Of a stretch of 64,000 nt of DNA, positions 52,459 to 59,746 are shown in pieces. The notes beneath the pieces were generated by a model, which saw only the letters and a list, made by a program, of their open reading frames with translations, ran no database searches and was not told where the DNA came from. The first letter of the stretch is position 1; every line of letters starts with the position of its first letter. This DNA is from Gemmatimonadota bacterium (GTDB taxonomy: Bacteria > Gemmatimonadota > Gemmatimonadetes > Gemmatimonadales > Gemmatimonadaceae). A program made the translations under genes and the position numbers. The stretch covers positions 62,001-126,000 of the forward strand of contig DAHUXM010000016.1 of NCBI GenBank assembly GCA_027307165.1, given 5' to 3'.

Positions 52459-54846
52459 ATGAACCCTGAGAGGGACGAGTGGCTCTGGGGCTGGGACGCA
52501 ACACCGGGGATCGTATCCGTTCATGCGGACCATGACGGACGCGCAACGGTGTGGCGCCGCATCGCCGAGACGGGGGAACTCGTGCGCGAGCAGGAGCGCT
52601 TTCGCCCATGGTTGCTGCTCGCGCACATCGAAGACCTGAATCATCTCGGAAGCAGGCTCGATCATGGTAACAGCCCATCGGCTGCATTTCATCATCGCGA
52701 GCTGGAAGGACCGGGCGCGCTCCGTCATCTCGTCAGTGCGACTGACGGTCGCGCCCTCACCGCAGCCGTCCTTCGGGGTGCGTCGGAAAGAATTGGGCAG
52801 CGTATGAATCACGTCAGCGAGCTTGGCCAGCAGAACGTGCTGTCCCTGCCGCCCGAAGAGCAGTATCTCGTCGCAACCGGACGCAATTATTTTCGCGATC
52901 TCCCGTTCGACGCACTGCACCGCATGCAGTTCGACCTCGAAACCACGGGCCTCGACCCGCAGCAGGATCGAATCTTCATGATCTCGATTCGCTATCACTC
53001 GGGCGACACGGAAGTGCTCGAAGCGGCGAGCGATGACGACGCTGCCGAAGCGGATCTGATCCGTCGTCTCGTCCACTCAGTGCACGCGGCCGACCCTGAC
53101 GTGATAGAGAATCACAACCTGCACGGCTTCGATCTTCCATTCCTGGACCAACGCTCCCGCACGCTCGGCGTCCCACTCTCACTCGGCAGGATCAGGACCG
53201 CGGGATTGCGACAGCGCGCAGCACGACGCGGTATCCGATCCGCCGACCTCAACGACAGGAGACGCGTAAGATTCGTCGCGCCAGGTAGAGAGCTGATAGA
53301 CACTCTCGATGCGGTACGGCGCTACGACTTCTCGACGCGTGAATTGCCGAGCTACGGGCTCAAGGCGGTCGCAAAGCATCTCGGAATCGCGGCCCCGGAT
53401 CGCGAGTACGTACGCGGCGACCAGATCTACACGACATTCCGCACGGATCCGGAACGCGTCCGCCGTTACGCGACGGACGACGTCGAGGAGGTGGCGCAGC
53501 TGTCGCGTCTCCTCGGCGGCGCGGCGTACGCGCTCGCGCAGATGGTCCCGAGACGCTACGAGCGACTCGCGGATGCCGGCGCCGCGACTGGCGTCATCGA
53601 CCCCCTGATCGTGCGCGCGTACATACGCTCCGGCGCGGCGCTGCCTGCACATCAACCTGGCGACGGAACTTCACATAGTGGCGCAGCGCTACATCTCTTC
53701 GCGGCCGGTGTCGCACATCGCGTCGTCAAGGCCGATGTGGCAAGCCTGTATCCGTCGCTGATGCGCACGTATCGCATTGGACCGAAGCGCGATCGGCTCG
53801 GCGTTCTTCTCGCCCTCGTCGATGGTCTGGTCGAGCGACGGCTGGAGGCCAAGGCGCGCGCGCGCATCTCCGTGCCGGGATCGGCTGAACGACACGGCAA
53901 CGAAGCGATGTCAGCGGCACTCAAGATAGTCGTGAACTCCGCGTACGGTTATCTCGGCGCGGGCGGCCTCACGCGATTCGCCGACATACACGCGGCGAAC
54001 GAAGTCACACGGCGCGGACGCGAAGTGCTTGGACTGCTATGCAGGGAGCTCGCCGCTCGCGGCGTGACGCTGCTCGAAGCCGATACCGACGGCGTCTATT
54101 TCGCGGTGCCTGCAAACTGGAGTGAAGCGGATGAACGCCGCGTCGTCGCCGATGTCGCAACGCTGCTCCCGCCACTGGTCCAGCTCGAATTCGAGGGACG
54201 CTACGCAGCCATGCTGTCACACGAGCCCAAGAATTATGCGCTGCTCGGCTACGATGGAACGCTGTTGCTCAGAGGCGTCGCCTTCAGATCGAGCCGCTCG
54301 GAGCCGTTTGGCGAGGCGTTCCTGCGCCAGGCGATTGCGCGGCTGCTCGCCGGCGATGTGCCGGGAGTTCGGCGTGCATATCTTGCGACTGTCACCGCGC
54401 TTCAAACGCGGATCCTCTCGACGCATGATGTCTCTGCGCGACTCCGTCTCTCCAAACCGCCACAGGACTATCTCGCGACGAGGGCGAAACGCCGCGAGAT
54501 TCCATACGAGGCACTGTTGAGTGCAGGGCGCACGACGTGGAGCGTCGGTGATCGCATTCGCGTGTATCGCAAGCAGAACGGCGAGTACGGACTCCTCACT
54601 TCGCACGAGGACGAGAGCGCCGATCGGGATCCGCGCGATTATTCCGTGGACCATTATGTCCGGCTGCTCCACACTACCTACGCACAGCGAATGGCGCGCG
54701 CGTTCACCCCGCTGGACTTTACCACCGTATTCGCGGACGCGGACCAGTTCTCCATCTTCCAGCCATCCATCGAATCAGTACGCACGGTTCTTACGACCAG
54801 CACCGCGACCATGATCCTGTCGACTGATTCACCGTCCTATACGTAG
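52459..54846 (+). CDS. Family B DNA polymerase with 3'-5' exonuclease
   Basis: 795 residues. Exonuclease motifs: FDLETTGLD (near 158), ENHNLHGFDLPFL and YATDD. Polymerase motifs: A, DVASLYPSL (near 424); B, KIVVNSAYGYLG (near 488); C, EADTDGVYF (near 541). All catalytic acids are kept, so it should be active and proofreading. Motif C reads DTDG as in archaeal family B enzymes, not the DTDS of E. coli Pol II. Likely an accessory repair or bypass polymerase. No clear Shine-Dalgarno at ATG 52459. Its end overlaps the convergent histidine kinase by 18 bp. Confidence 0.92.
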   Translation: MNPERDEWLWGWDATPGIVSVHADHDGRATVWRRIAETGELVREQERFRPWLLLAHIEDLNHLGSRLDHGNSPSAAFHHRELEGPGALRHLVSATDGRALTAAVLRGASERIGQRMNHVSELGQQNVLSLPPEEQYLVATGRNYFRDLPFDALHRMQFDLETTGLDPQQDRIFMISIRYHSGDTEVLEAASDDDAAEADLIRRLVHSVHAADPDVIENHNLHGFDLPFLDQRSRTLGVPLSLGRIRTAGLRQRAARRGIRSADLNDRRRVRFVAPGRELIDTLDAVRRYDFSTRELPSYGLKAVAKHLGIAAPDREYVRGDQIYTTFRTDPERVRRYATDDVEEVAQLSRLLGGAAYALAQMVPRRYERLADAGAATGVIDPLIVRAYIRSGAALPAHQPGDGTSHSGAALHLFAAGVAHRVVKADVASLYPSLMRTYRIGPKRDRLGVLLALVDGLVERRLEAKARARISVPGSAERHGNEAMSAALKIVVNSAYGYLGAGGLTRFADIHAANEVTRRGREVLGLLCRELAARGVTLLEADTDGVYFAVPANWSEADERRVVADVATLLPPLVQLEFEGRYAAMLSHEPKNYALLGYDGTLLLRGVAFRSSRSEPFGEAFLRQAIARLLAGDVPGVRRAYLATVTALQTRILSTHDVSARLRLSKPPQDYLATRAKRREIPYEALLSAGRTTWSVGDRIRVYRKQNGEYGLLTSHEDESADRDPRDYSVDHYVRLLHTTYAQRMARAFTPLDFTTVFADADQFSIFQPSIESVRTVLTTSTATMILSTDSPSYT

Positions 54847-56127
54847 CACGGGCAGCGTGAGCGTGAACTCCGACCCGCGACCCAGCTCGCTCGTGACACT
54901 CAACTCGCCACCAAGCCGTCGCGCGAGATCGCGGCTGATCGCCAGACCCAGGCCGACACCCTCGCTTGGACGATTGAGTCGGCGCCCTACCTGAACGAAT
55001 GGCTGCCATATGCCATCGATCTGATCGGGTGGTATGCCCCGCCCTGTATCCCGTACCGAGACGCGCACACGCTTCTCTCCAATTGATCCGTCGCCCACGA
55101 GCCCGCACGTCATGCGTATTTCTCCGCCCGGCTCGGTGAACTTGATAGCATTGGTGAGAAGGTTGAGCGCGATCTGTTGCAGCCGATGCGGATCGGCACG
55201 CACGATGACACGACAGTCGAGCGGCTCGTATACGTACGCGATTCCCCGCGCTCTCGCCTGCGGCATGGTCATCATTTCGGCTTCTCGCAGGGTCTGGTGC
55301 AGATCGACGTCATCGAAATGCAGCTCGGTATGGCCGGAGCCCAGTCGCGCGAAATCGAGCACCTCCGTTATCAGGCGCAACAGGTGAGCCTGGCTCGCCT
55401 TGATGCGCCTCAGGTCGTCGGCCTGCTCGACCGTGATCGGACCTCGCAGCCCCATCTCCAGCAGCTCGACGTAGCCGCCGATTGCGTTCAGCGGAGTACG
55501 CAGCTCGTGACTCATGGCGGCGAGGAACGAGGTCTTGCTGGTGTCGGCCTGCAACGCTGCGTCACGGGCTGATTCGGCTTCGCGAAGCGCAACCTCGGCG
55601 AGCAGGCGCGCTTCGTGTTCCGCCTCGTAAAGGCGCACGTTTTCGGCGAGCAGCGCAGAGCTCTCCAGTTGTTTCGCGAGGCGCGCGTTTTCGAGCGGAG
55701 CGGCAATCTGGTCCGCGAGCGCGGCGAGCAACCACTCGTCATCTTCCGACACCGGGAGTCCATCCGGCCGCACCGTGGCCAGAAGTCCGACGACATTTCC
55801 ATGCGACACCAGCGGAACACCGACGAAACCACTGGCCAGGTTGGCACCCAGCAAGCCACGCAACCGACTCACCAACGCCTCGTTCGCCGGCTGCCTGAAA
55901 CGCTCGACGGTTTCCGCATCCACTCCTATCGCCGCACGTACGCGGAGCAGTCCGTCGTCATCGGTGAGCAACAACACCGCCTTCTCGGACCGCATCAGAT
56001 GCGCCGACTGTGACACCGCCAGATCGAGAATGTCATCGAGCGATCGCGCGTACGTGAATTCCCGACTGAGTCGAGTCAGCTGGTGAAGGTCTTCCACGCG
56101 GCCGGGCCGTTCCATGTCGTCCATCAT
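54829..56127 (-). CDS. Soluble GAF-domain sensor histidine kinase
   Basis: 432 residues and no membrane segment. A GAF domain (about 20-150) and a coiled coil (150-200) lead to HisKA with MSHELRTPLNAIGG (His207). The HATPase domain has NLLTNAIKFTEPGG, DTGRGIPP and GVGLGLAISRDLA. It lies 54 bases after a KaiC-like gene on the same strand and is the last gene of a receiver - KaiC-like - kinase set. GAF may bind a small ligand, haem or chromophore; no sign which. Confidence 0.9.
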   Translation of the reverse strand: MMDDMERPGRVEDLHQLTRLSREFTYARSLDDILDLAVSQSAHLMRSEKAVLLLTDDDGLLRVRAAIGVDAETVERFRQPANEALVSRLRGLLGANLASGFVGVPLVSHGNVVGLLATVRPDGLPVSEDDEWLLAALADQIAAPLENARLAKQLESSALLAENVRLYEAEHEARLLAEVALREAESARDAALQADTSKTSFLAAMSHELRTPLNAIGGYVELLEMGLRGPITVEQADDLRRIKASQAHLLRLITEVLDFARLGSGHTELHFDDVDLHQTLREAEMMTMPQARARGIAYVYEPLDCRVIVRADPHRLQQIALNLLTNAIKFTEPGGEIRMTCGLVGDGSIGEKRVRVSVRDTGRGIPPDQIDGIWQPFVQVGRRLNRPSEGVGLGLAISRDLARRLGGELSVTSELGRGSEFTLTLPVLRIGR

Positions 56128-56181: not shown

Positions 56182-57597
56182 TCAGAGGACGTGAACGCCA
56201 TCACGACGGATTTCCACGCGGTGTGGCAACGGGTCGTGATCGCTGTTGCGTGTCTTCACTACTCGTATTGTGCGCTCCCCAGCCAAACCTTCGGTTCGCT
56301 CGAGGACCAACACGTTGTCGGACATGTAGCTCCACCGTTGCTCTTCCTCTCGTTTCCCTGTCACACCAGGCGCCGACTCGAGATTGAGCAGTGTGGTCAC
56401 GTTACGCACCACGAAGTGCTGGACCAGCGAATATAGAAAGTCATTCAGTCGATGCGGATCGCTCGCGGCTGTCGACAGGTCACCAACGGCATCGATGACG
56501 ACACGCCGCACGTTCGCCGTCTCGATGAAGTCGAAGATCTCCACGATTACGCTGTCGATCTGCAACTCCACGGGGGACCTGTAGAGGTGATAAAAGCCCG
56601 TTGCGTAGGCGATTTCCGGATCGGTCCCGAGCGCTCTGATCATCCGCTGCACCTGAGCAGGGTTTTCCTGGAAGTTCACGAAAAGCACTGCCTCACCCTG
56701 GCGATGCGCCTCCAGAGCGAACTGAAGCCCGATGGTCGACTTTCCAGAACCGGTGGGGCCGGCTACGAGCGTGGTGCTGCCACGCCACACGCCGCCGCCC
56801 ATGATCTCATCCAGTCCGTCGATGCCGGTGGCCGTTCGCTCGAGAAGCGGCACATAGCTCTCGAACTTTGGCGTCACCAGACGCGGAAAGATCGCGAGAC
56901 CGTTGGACGTGATGCGAAACGCGTGCCTGCCCTCGCTGTAACCGCTTCCCCGCAGCTTCAGCACCCGGAGGTATCGCTCATCCCGAGCCCCGAGCGTGTT
57001 GCGTTCCAGCTGCACGATGGAATCCGCGACCGCAAATTCCGGATATTGCTCGATGTCGTCCTGCGTGTATTCACCCAGCAGAAACACAGTCATGTCGTAA
57101 GCCGACACGACTCCCGCGAGCTGCGATACGAGCCGCCGTATCTCCCAGGTGGATTGAGCGATGTCGTGTATGGCCTTGAACGAGTCGATCACCACGACTG
57201 ATGGCGACAGACTCTTTATGGATTCCAGAAGGTGTGGTACCAGTGCGGCCGGCCCGTCAGCGATAAGCTTGGCGCCGAGATCGTCATACAGGATTCCCGT
57301 GCCGACCTGGTCGATGTCGAAAAAGCCGAGCCGTTGTGCATAACTCACGACCTTTGACATCGGTTCTGACAGAGTGGTCAGATAGAGTAGAGGCCTGGCC
57401 GGATTCGCGTTGTGAAAGAGCAGCTGCTCGGCGAAGATCGTCTTTCCCGTGCCGGGCTGCCCCATGATGATGTTGATCGAATGTGCGGGAAATCCGCCGC
57501 AGAGAATCGCGTCGGCCTGCGGGTTCCCCGTACTGATGCGGGGAAACACGACGGAGTCGTCCGTGACGCCCGATTCGTCCATCAGTGCATCAGTCAT
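56182..57597 (-). CDS. Double-domain KaiC-like ATPase
   Basis: 471 residues with two RecA-fold halves. First: Walker A GQPGTGKT (46-53) and Walker B VVVIDSF (134-140). Second: Walker A GPTGSGKS (280-287) and RRVVIDAVGDL (364-374). It matches KaiC in plan but is shorter. Cyanobacterial EE catalytic pairs read SE and QE here. The phosphosite segment reads W-S423-Y-M-S-D, so Ser is kept at the S431 place and Tyr replaces T432. No KaiA or KaiB is in the window. It overlaps the receiver gene by 4 bp. A signalling switch is more likely than a full clock. Confidence 0.88.
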   Translation of the reverse strand: MTDALMDESGVTDDSVVFPRISTGNPQADAILCGGFPAHSINIIMGQPGTGKTIFAEQLLFHNANPARPLLYLTTLSEPMSKVVSYAQRLGFFDIDQVGTGILYDDLGAKLIADGPAALVPHLLESIKSLSPSVVVIDSFKAIHDIAQSTWEIRRLVSQLAGVVSAYDMTVFLLGEYTQDDIEQYPEFAVADSIVQLERNTLGARDERYLRVLKLRGSGYSEGRHAFRITSNGLAIFPRLVTPKFESYVPLLERTATGIDGLDEIMGGGVWRGSTTLVAGPTGSGKSTIGLQFALEAHRQGEAVLFVNFQENPAQVQRMIRALGTDPEIAYATGFYHLYRSPVELQIDSVIVEIFDFIETANVRRVVIDAVGDLSTAASDPHRLNDFLYSLVQHFVVRNVTTLLNLESAPGVTGKREEEQRWSYMSDNVLVLERTEGLAGERTIRVVKTRNSDHDPLPHRVEIRRDGVHVL

Positions 57598-58022
57598 GGA
57601 AGCTGTCCCGGTTGCGTCCCTGCTGCGGTATGAGGCGATGTTGCAGCTCTCCTCTCCAGCAGCTCACGAACAGTTTGAACCAGCCGTTGCTCGGCCAGCG
57701 GTTTGATCAGGAACGCATCGGCACCAGCGTCGCGTGCGCGCCCATGCGCCGCCAGGATGCTGAATATCAGCACGACGGTGTCGGCGAGTTCCGGGTCCTG
57801 CTTCACCGCCCGGCACAACGCCAGGCCATCCAGCTTGGGAACCATGATCTCGGTAACGATGATCGCGGGGCGCCTCTCACGTGCGAGCTGCAACGCGGCG
57901 ATGCCGTCCTCGGCAAAGTCCACCGCGAACCCGGCTTCGTTGAGGAAAAAGGACTCGAGTTCACGAACGTGAGGGTCGCGTTCGACAACAAGGACCAACG
58001 CGCTTGCTTCGTCTGTATTCAC
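57594..58022 (-). CDS. Atypical receiver-domain protein with Glu at the phospho site
   Basis: 142 residues from GTG 58022; the longer frame to 58124 adds a non-conserved stretch. A single receiver fold: LVLVVERDPHVREL, AIIVTEIMVPKLDG, VLIFSIL, AGADAFLIKPL. The expected phospho-accepting Asp is Glu58 and the second acidic-pocket residue is Arg15. Ser88 and Lys107 are kept. It may therefore be locked in one state or switch without phosphate. No output domain. The 4-bp overlap with the KaiC-like gene suggests direct partnership. Confidence 0.85.
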   Translation of the reverse strand: MNTDEASALVLVVERDPHVRELESFFLNEAGFAVDFAEDGIAALQLARERRPAIIVTEIMVPKLDGLALCRAVKQDPELADTVVLIFSILAAHGRARDAGADAFLIKPLAEQRLVQTVRELLERRAATSPHTAAGTQPGQLP

Positions 58023-58315: not shown

Positions 58316-59746
58316 ATGTCCTCGACGACGACGTCTACCGCGGCCGCCGGTCCGACGCTCTCCCCTCCCCGCTCCGACAGCGACGAGCTGACCTTCCTGC
58401 TCGCCGCCGAGCGGGCACGGGCCGAGGGGCTGCTGAACGTCCTGCGGCTGGTGATCGTCGTCGTTCTGACTGTAGCGGCCCTGGCCTACTCCACGGCCTT
58501 GCCACGCCCTCTGCGGGCCGCCAATGCGGCGGTTCTCGCTCCGATGCTGCTCTGGTCAGTGGCGCTCGCATCGCTCGTCCGCAGCCGCGACGGTGCGTAT
58601 CCTCGCTGGCTGTCCGCCGTCGCACCGATAGTCGACGCGACGGCCGTCACCGCGATCATCCTGTGCTATGGTCTGCTCGGCTCCCCGTCGGTCGCGCTAA
58701 AGGCGCCGATCACACTCGTCTACTTCGCGATATTGGCGGCACGCCCGATCATGGGATCGGCGCGGTCCACGGGACTTACCGCCGCCTGCATTACCGCTGA
58801 ATATCTCGCGGCGCTGTTGATACTGGTTCAGGTTGCGCACGTGACGCTATGGTCGGATCCGATCACGGCTGCCGCATCAGCCAATGTGGCGATTCTGGAC
58901 GAAGGGATGAAGCTGGTGCTCCTCGCGGCAGCCGGTGTAGTCGCGACTTATGTAAGTGCGTGGCACGAACGAGTGCTGCGGCGTGCGCTGGCCGCACAGA
59001 TCGTGCGAAACACTGAACAACGCGATCTCTCGATTCGCCTTCAGGAAGCAGACAAGCTCGCAGCGCTTGGCACACTCGCCGCCTGCGTAGCGCACGAGGT
59101 GAACAGCCCCCTCACCGCGATCGCGCTGTCCGCGGAGATGCTCGGCCGCGGTCTCACGCATCCAGCCGATCGCGAGGAAGCCAACGCGATCGCCAGTGAC
59201 GCGCGGCGCACCGCAACCGCGCTGCACGATCTTCTCGCCTTCGCGCGACAGGGCCAGACGGAGCCCGCTACAGTACTGCTCGGCGACGTCGTTACGAAAA
59301 GCATCGGGACTCTCCGGTCTCTCCTGCGTGAGCGCAGAGTGGTCGTCGAGCGTGATGCCGAGAGTGGCGCGGTTCCGGTGAACGGCGACGCCAGCGCGCT
59401 CGAGCGCGTAGTCATCAATCTGATCATCAACGCAACTCAGGCGATGGAATCGCAGAGCACCGAGCGCATCATTCGGATTCGTGTGAGCGGCGACGGCGAC
59501 ACTGCAATGCTCTCAGTCGAAGACAACGGACCCGGTTTCTCTCCCGGCGCGGTCGAGCACGTGTTCGAGCGATTCTTCACTACCAAACCGGCCGGCAAGG
59601 GTACGGGCCTTGGGCTGTGGATGGTGGCCGACATCGTGGCCAGACATGGCGGTACGATCTCCGCCACGGATACCGGTCACGGTGCACGCTTCACCGTGAA
59701 ACTGCCGGTGATTGGCTACAGCGAAAACGCAGAGGCCGCTGCGTAA
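58316..59746 (+). CDS. Membrane sensor histidine kinase
   Basis: 476 residues. About six hydrophobic segments between 40 and 215 form an integral sensor with only short loops. HisKA follows with CVAHEVNSPLTAI (His260), then HATPase with NLIINATQAM, DNGPGFSP and GKGTGLGLWMV. It is divergent from the receiver-KaiC-kinase set by 293 bases. No partner regulator is adjacent on its own strand. A large hairpin covers its stop codon. Confidence 0.88.
   Translation: MSSTTTSTAAAGPTLSPPRSDSDELTFLLAAERARAEGLLNVLRLVIVVVLTVAALAYSTALPRPLRAANAAVLAPMLLWSVALASLVRSRDGAYPRWLSAVAPIVDATAVTAIILCYGLLGSPSVALKAPITLVYFAILAARPIMGSARSTGLTAACITAEYLAALLILVQVAHVTLWSDPITAAASANVAILDEGMKLVLLAAAGVVATYVSAWHERVLRRALAAQIVRNTEQRDLSIRLQEADKLAALGTLAACVAHEVNSPLTAIALSAEMLGRGLTHPADREEANAIASDARRTATALHDLLAFARQGQTEPATVLLGDVVTKSIGTLRSLLRERRVVVERDAESGAVPVNGDASALERVVINLIINATQAMESQSTERIIRIRVSGDGDTAMLSVEDNGPGFSPGAVEHVFERFFTTKPAGKGTGLGLWMVADIVARHGGTISATDTGHGARFTVKLPVIGYSENAEAAA

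Follow-up and report, generated by a model that had tools for sequence, protein, structure and literature searches.

Among receiver domains that lack the phospho-accepting aspartate, glutamate is the commonest replacement, found in 26% of them (PMC4395418). A glutamate in this place is not always activating, as the activity of ChxR survived its replacement (PMC4395418). Pseudo-receivers may come in several types, each with its own conserved residues, according to a review that also counts the switching of bacterial pseudo-receivers among the open questions (PMC12632262). The receiver analysed here is like the aspartate-less receivers ChxR, RitR, HP1043 and FrzS in that it has the PF00072 fold, lacks the phospho-Asp and keeps the first acidic residue and the Lys, and it is like RitR in particular (Lys10) in having a basic residue at the second acidic position (PMC4395418, PMC12632262). 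Unlike the members of this class, it stands alone, is linked both to a KaiC-like ATPase and to a GAF kinase, and keeps one residue set across three phyla.

The second body of relevant work concerns KaiC. The earlier note on this DNA had called a KaiC-like ATPase an unusual partner for a receiver, which overstates the case: the portion of De Luca et al. (2011) drawn on here already reports that bacterial KaiC genes adjoin single-domain receivers and/or histidine kinases (PMC3164672), and Methanosarcinaceae have KaiC-REC fusions (PMC5847659). The gene-context groups in that portion of De Luca et al. (e.g. Ramlibacter Rta_04330/04340) share with the present locus the receiver or histidine kinase neighbours and an S-Y type phosphosite, but that portion does not take up the active site of the receiver, and there the receiver usually follows kaiC whereas here it precedes the KaiC gene and overlaps it by ATGA (PMC3164672). 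The methanosarcinal proteins likewise link a KaiC-family ATPase to a receiver, but they are archaeal and fused, whereas here the genes are separate and the receiver is Asp-less (PMC5847659). The KaiA and CikA domains of the cyanobacterial clock are also pseudo-receivers in a KaiC system; they are, however, parts of larger proteins, while ours is a stand-alone protein in a genome without KaiB and beside a KaiC without the C-terminal tail. In the open-access papers we searched, no description was found of a receiver, KaiC and kinase trio with a conserved E/R pocket. Judged against that literature, pseudo-receivers are known, as are KaiC genes beside receivers and kinases, and what is apparently new is their combination with the E/R pocket.

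Pocket and predicted fold of the receiver

The locus lies in a window of 64,000 nucleotides from a 3.7 Mb assembly whose close relatives, by receiver protein, are Gemmatimonadetes MAGs (Table 1). Response_reg (PF00072; residues 10–119, 66 bits) is the sole Pfam domain in the receiver. The earlier note had placed Glu58 at the phosphosite and Arg15 in the acidic pocket, with Ser88 and Lys107 kept, and our alignment with CheY and with receivers of the same genome agrees: DD1 is E14, DD2 is R15, D is E58, T is S88 and K is K107, so that the protein departs from D/D/D at all three acidic positions. The Glu at DD1 is unremarkable, being present in 22 of 55 alignment rows. Asp occupies D in 53 of the 54 same-genome comparison receivers and DD2 likewise in 53 of 54, the lone exception among them being a different pseudo-receiver. 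With E14, R15 and E58 the protein does not have the Asp at D and the acidic DD1 and DD2 of a canonical phosphorylatable response regulator; it combines a receiver-domain fold with a missing phospho-Asp, as pseudo-receivers (aspartate-less receivers) do. An alignment slip, with the Asp elsewhere, was ruled out by the alignments with CheY, with same-genome receivers and with homologues. Besides the receiver analysed here, the genome encodes the pseudo-receiver L191 (G000:C26:23073-23393), with a Glu-Cys pair, Asn at the phosphosite and Met at the Lys position.

Table 1. Features of the receiver operon and its flanks in the window
Feature	Position	Strand	Remarks
Single-domain pseudo-receiver	57594..58022	(-)	142 aa, GTG start; E14 and R15 at the acidic pair, E58 in the phospho-Asp position, S88 and K107; translation contains LVLVVERDPHVREL, IIVTEIMVPKLDGL and IFSILAAHGRARDAGADAFLIKPL, in that order
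Arg15 codon CGC, second acidic-pocket position	57978..57980	(-)	From sequence and alignment
Glu58 codon GAG, phospho-acceptor position	57849..57851	(-)	From sequence and alignment
ATGA overlap, receiver stop and KaiC start	57594..57597	(-)	KaiC ATG 57597-57595, receiver TGA 57596-57594
KaiC-like double-domain ATPase	56182..57597	(-)	471 aa
GAF-HisKA-HATPase histidine kinase	54829..56127	(-)	54 bp after kaiC; H (His207), N, G1 and G2 boxes intact
Second HisKA histidine kinase	58316-59746	(+)	Divergent from receiver operon
Large ORF, family B DNA polymerase-like by eye	52459-54846	(+)	Convergent with operon

AlphaFold, with 25 family sequences, predicts a confident receiver fold (pLDDT 91, and about 97 within the domain) in which helix 4 is short (residues 93–99), and the spacing from T to K is 19 residues as against 22 in CheY. 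The short helix 4 was considered as a hallmark of the family and rejected, since the genome also encodes an Asp-containing receiver with equal spacing; this is the receiver of a hybrid kinase (L166), whose Asp residues are normal. Shortening of helix 4 would therefore predate the loss of the Asp or have arisen more than once. The best Foldseek matches are ordinary receivers, such as RpaA (E 3e-11), VicR and DivK. These matches, and the lack of a known ligand, speak against a ligand-binding pseudo-receiver that would report redox or a metabolite to KaiC in the manner of the KaiA and CikA domains. Those domains are indeed quinone-binding and exert their effect on the KaiC system (PMC12632262), and the pocket of the present receiver is both remodelled and fully conserved, but on balance we regard such a role as quite improbable.

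Conservation across operons and association with one KaiC clade

To collect homologues we scanned 84,980 species genomes for a pattern, ran a protein search on 200 Gemmatimonadota genomes and a KaiC profile search on 395 genomes of that phylum, and searched around the myxococcotal and gammaproteobacterial members. The de-duplicated set comprises 26 operons (20 from Gemmatimonadota, four from Myxococcota and two from Gammaproteobacteria), and their receivers form one clade (support 0.98) apart from the other receivers of the source genome. Glu stands at the phosphosite in all 26, as do Ser at T and Lys at K. The DD2 column has Arg in 24 members, Gly in one and Lys in one, and is thus basic in 25 of 26, while DD1 has Glu in 25 and Asp in one. 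At T+1 there are 22 Ile, two Leu, one Met and one Val; the Y/T position has Phe in 24 and Tyr in two, and K+2 is mostly Leu. The single Gly at position 15 indicates that R15 is not an absolute requirement. Even the most diverged member (G614, L133), whose acidic pair is Asp-Lys, has Glu at the phosphosite.

The codons at E58 (GAG in 23 operons, GAA in three) show that synonymous change happens there. Asp was seen at this position in none of the 26 operons, although it lies one third-position base change away from the Glu codon, and acidic columns 21, 35, 76, 98 and 111 of the same receivers swap D and E. The proposal of a specialised receiver, predicted from its residues to be non-phosphorylatable, is borne out by these columns; the further idea of the earlier note, a receiver locked or switched by binding, is a hypothesis. 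E58 and R15 proved to be conserved together beside a KaiC-like gene, as the earlier note had suggested examining, and the homologues with normal Asp that it named as contrary evidence were sought among the 26 operons and not found.

Two other explanations meet the same data. The altered residues could be harmless in an ordinary receiver that is still phosphorylated, on Glu58 or on another residue, and the retention of Ser88 and Lys107 throughout the family would fit this. However, the phosphosite lacks Asp in every member, Arg occupies the place of a metal ligand, and signalling by Glu phosphorylation is not known in bacteria (PMC4395418), all of which makes an ordinary receiver very doubtful. 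An artefact, whether from sequencing error, a wrong frame or misalignment, is practically negligible as an explanation, given that identical residues recur in 26 operons from separate assemblies and that a second genome of the genus encodes a 96% identical protein.

All 26 receiver genes lie directly upstream of one clade of double-domain KaiC-like ATPase genes. The ATGA overlap is kept in most homologues, and it suggests that receiver and KaiC are translationally coupled. In the 395-genome profile search the linked clade and its sister clade were separated by score (E below 1e-190 versus 1e-115 and weaker, one fragment aside). All 18 fetched Gemmatimonadota loci of the linked clade have the receiver, and none of the 12 fetched Gemmatimonadota loci of the sister clade has it within 1.5 kb; many sister-clade loci have a histidine kinase nearby. 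The split is the same in Myxococcota and Gammaproteobacteria. As far as we searched, then, the receiver occurs with one KaiC clade only.

Some loci differ in their surroundings. One sister-clade KaiC gene of Myxococcota (L201, G549) has a different receiver upstream, with normal Asp residues and a degenerate C-terminal part, which indicates that other receivers can neighbour such KaiC genes. Genome G143 carries the operon twice, with the KaiC reading frame broken in one copy (L118); plasmid copies of the operon were looked for and none was found. In a close relative (L119), the place of the divergent HisKA kinase gene before the operon is taken by a GAF-PAS kinase gene that runs in the direction of the operon.

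The KaiC-like ATPase and the operon kinase

The ATPase belongs to the KaiC family (PF06745, 222 bits in two stretches), with tandem RecA/KaiC domains whose Walker A motifs are both intact, and it matches KaiC in the PDB with E 1.6e-78. The catalytic Glu pair of CI is replaced (TTLSEP), and CII reads FQEN, the first catalytic Glu having become Gln, as it has in nearly all proteins of the linked clade. Ser423, which corresponds to KaiC Ser431, is kept, the Thr432 position is Tyr, and the C-terminal tail is absent. No KaiB was found in the source genome; among the 24 operon-bearing genomes, 11 have one elsewhere in the genome. The loss of Thr432, the replaced CI pair, the Gln in CII and the lack of KaiB set this system apart from a circadian KaiABC oscillator, and by its sequence features the ATPase is KaiC-like, as distinct from a clock KaiC.

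A GAF histidine kinase follows KaiC in 23 of the 26 operons; of the other three, one ends at a contig edge (G345b), one has the broken KaiC (G143b) and in one no kinase was seen (G614). The earlier note was right that a kinase is near, but the GAF histidine kinase is more than a neighbour, since it belongs to the receiver operon itself. The H and N boxes are kept in the kinases of all 23 operons in the alignment, and the Asp of G1 reads Asn in four. A pattern scan had missed boxes in several kinases; degeneracy was discarded as an explanation once the alignment showed that the H and N boxes are present. The operon kinase thus looks catalytically intact from its motifs. Two of these kinases (G008 and G232) carry a receiver of their own with a normal Asp, which suggests that the operon kinases have other phosphate acceptors. 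The kinase core type varies by operon (HELRTP, HDIRSP, HDLRNP, HEVNN). A receiver fused to a sister-clade kinase, which could have served as a Rosetta stone, was sought and none was found.

Because the kinase is so regularly present, the receiver could be a non-phosphorylatable competitor of, or brake on, this kinase, acting at the dimerisation and phosphotransfer site or at the GAF domain, with KaiC as a separate input. Receiver distances track those of the GAF domain (partial r 0.41) and of the kinase core (partial r 0.26) better than those of KaiC (partial r −0.25), although the points are not independent and the correlations carry little weight. Against a brake, the kinase core type changes among operons while the receiver pocket stays fixed, and the sister KaiC clade has kinases without such a receiver. 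We consider this explanation unlikely.

A candidate docking module

The explanation we favour, and think probable from the sequences, is that the receiver is a phosphorylation-independent pseudo-receiver serving as the constitutive docking part of a module made up of pseudo-receiver, KaiC-like ATPase and GAF kinase. The retained Ser and Lys indicate that the pocket is still built, and a built pocket in which metal ligand and acceptor are replaced by an apparent charge pair points to a docking receiver with one conformation. R15 at a metal-ligand position and E58 at that of the Asp would form a fixed charge arrangement (E58 against R15 and K107, with S88) that stands in for Mg2+ and phosphate. 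The receiver would thereby be held in one conformation, in which it may bind KaiC, the GAF kinase or both; the nucleotide state of KaiC could then set the activity of the kinase through the docked receiver, and the kinase would hand its phosphate to another, Asp-containing receiver. In CheY the active form is favoured when K+2 is Leu (PMC12632262), and the Leu found there in most family members agrees with an active-like bias. As to the docking partner, the argument for KaiC is the exclusive tie to a single clade of it, together with the gene overlap, while the distance correlations, at the little weight they carry, favour the GAF domain of the kinase.

More specifically, the receiver could be the regulatory subunit of a KaiC-based timer or energy sensor that is non-circadian and works independently of KaiB, in which it would bind the KaiC ring in a nucleotide-dependent manner and pass its state to the GAF kinase. 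We hold this to be rather improbable; if true, the receiver would take the part played by KaiA/KaiB and SasA in cyanobacteria.

With one residue set, one gene context, a spread over three phyla and built-in candidate partners, the receiver family is a clean candidate for a pseudo-receiver type of its own, and its operon offers a testable handle on the roles of KaiC-like ATPases outside cyanobacteria.
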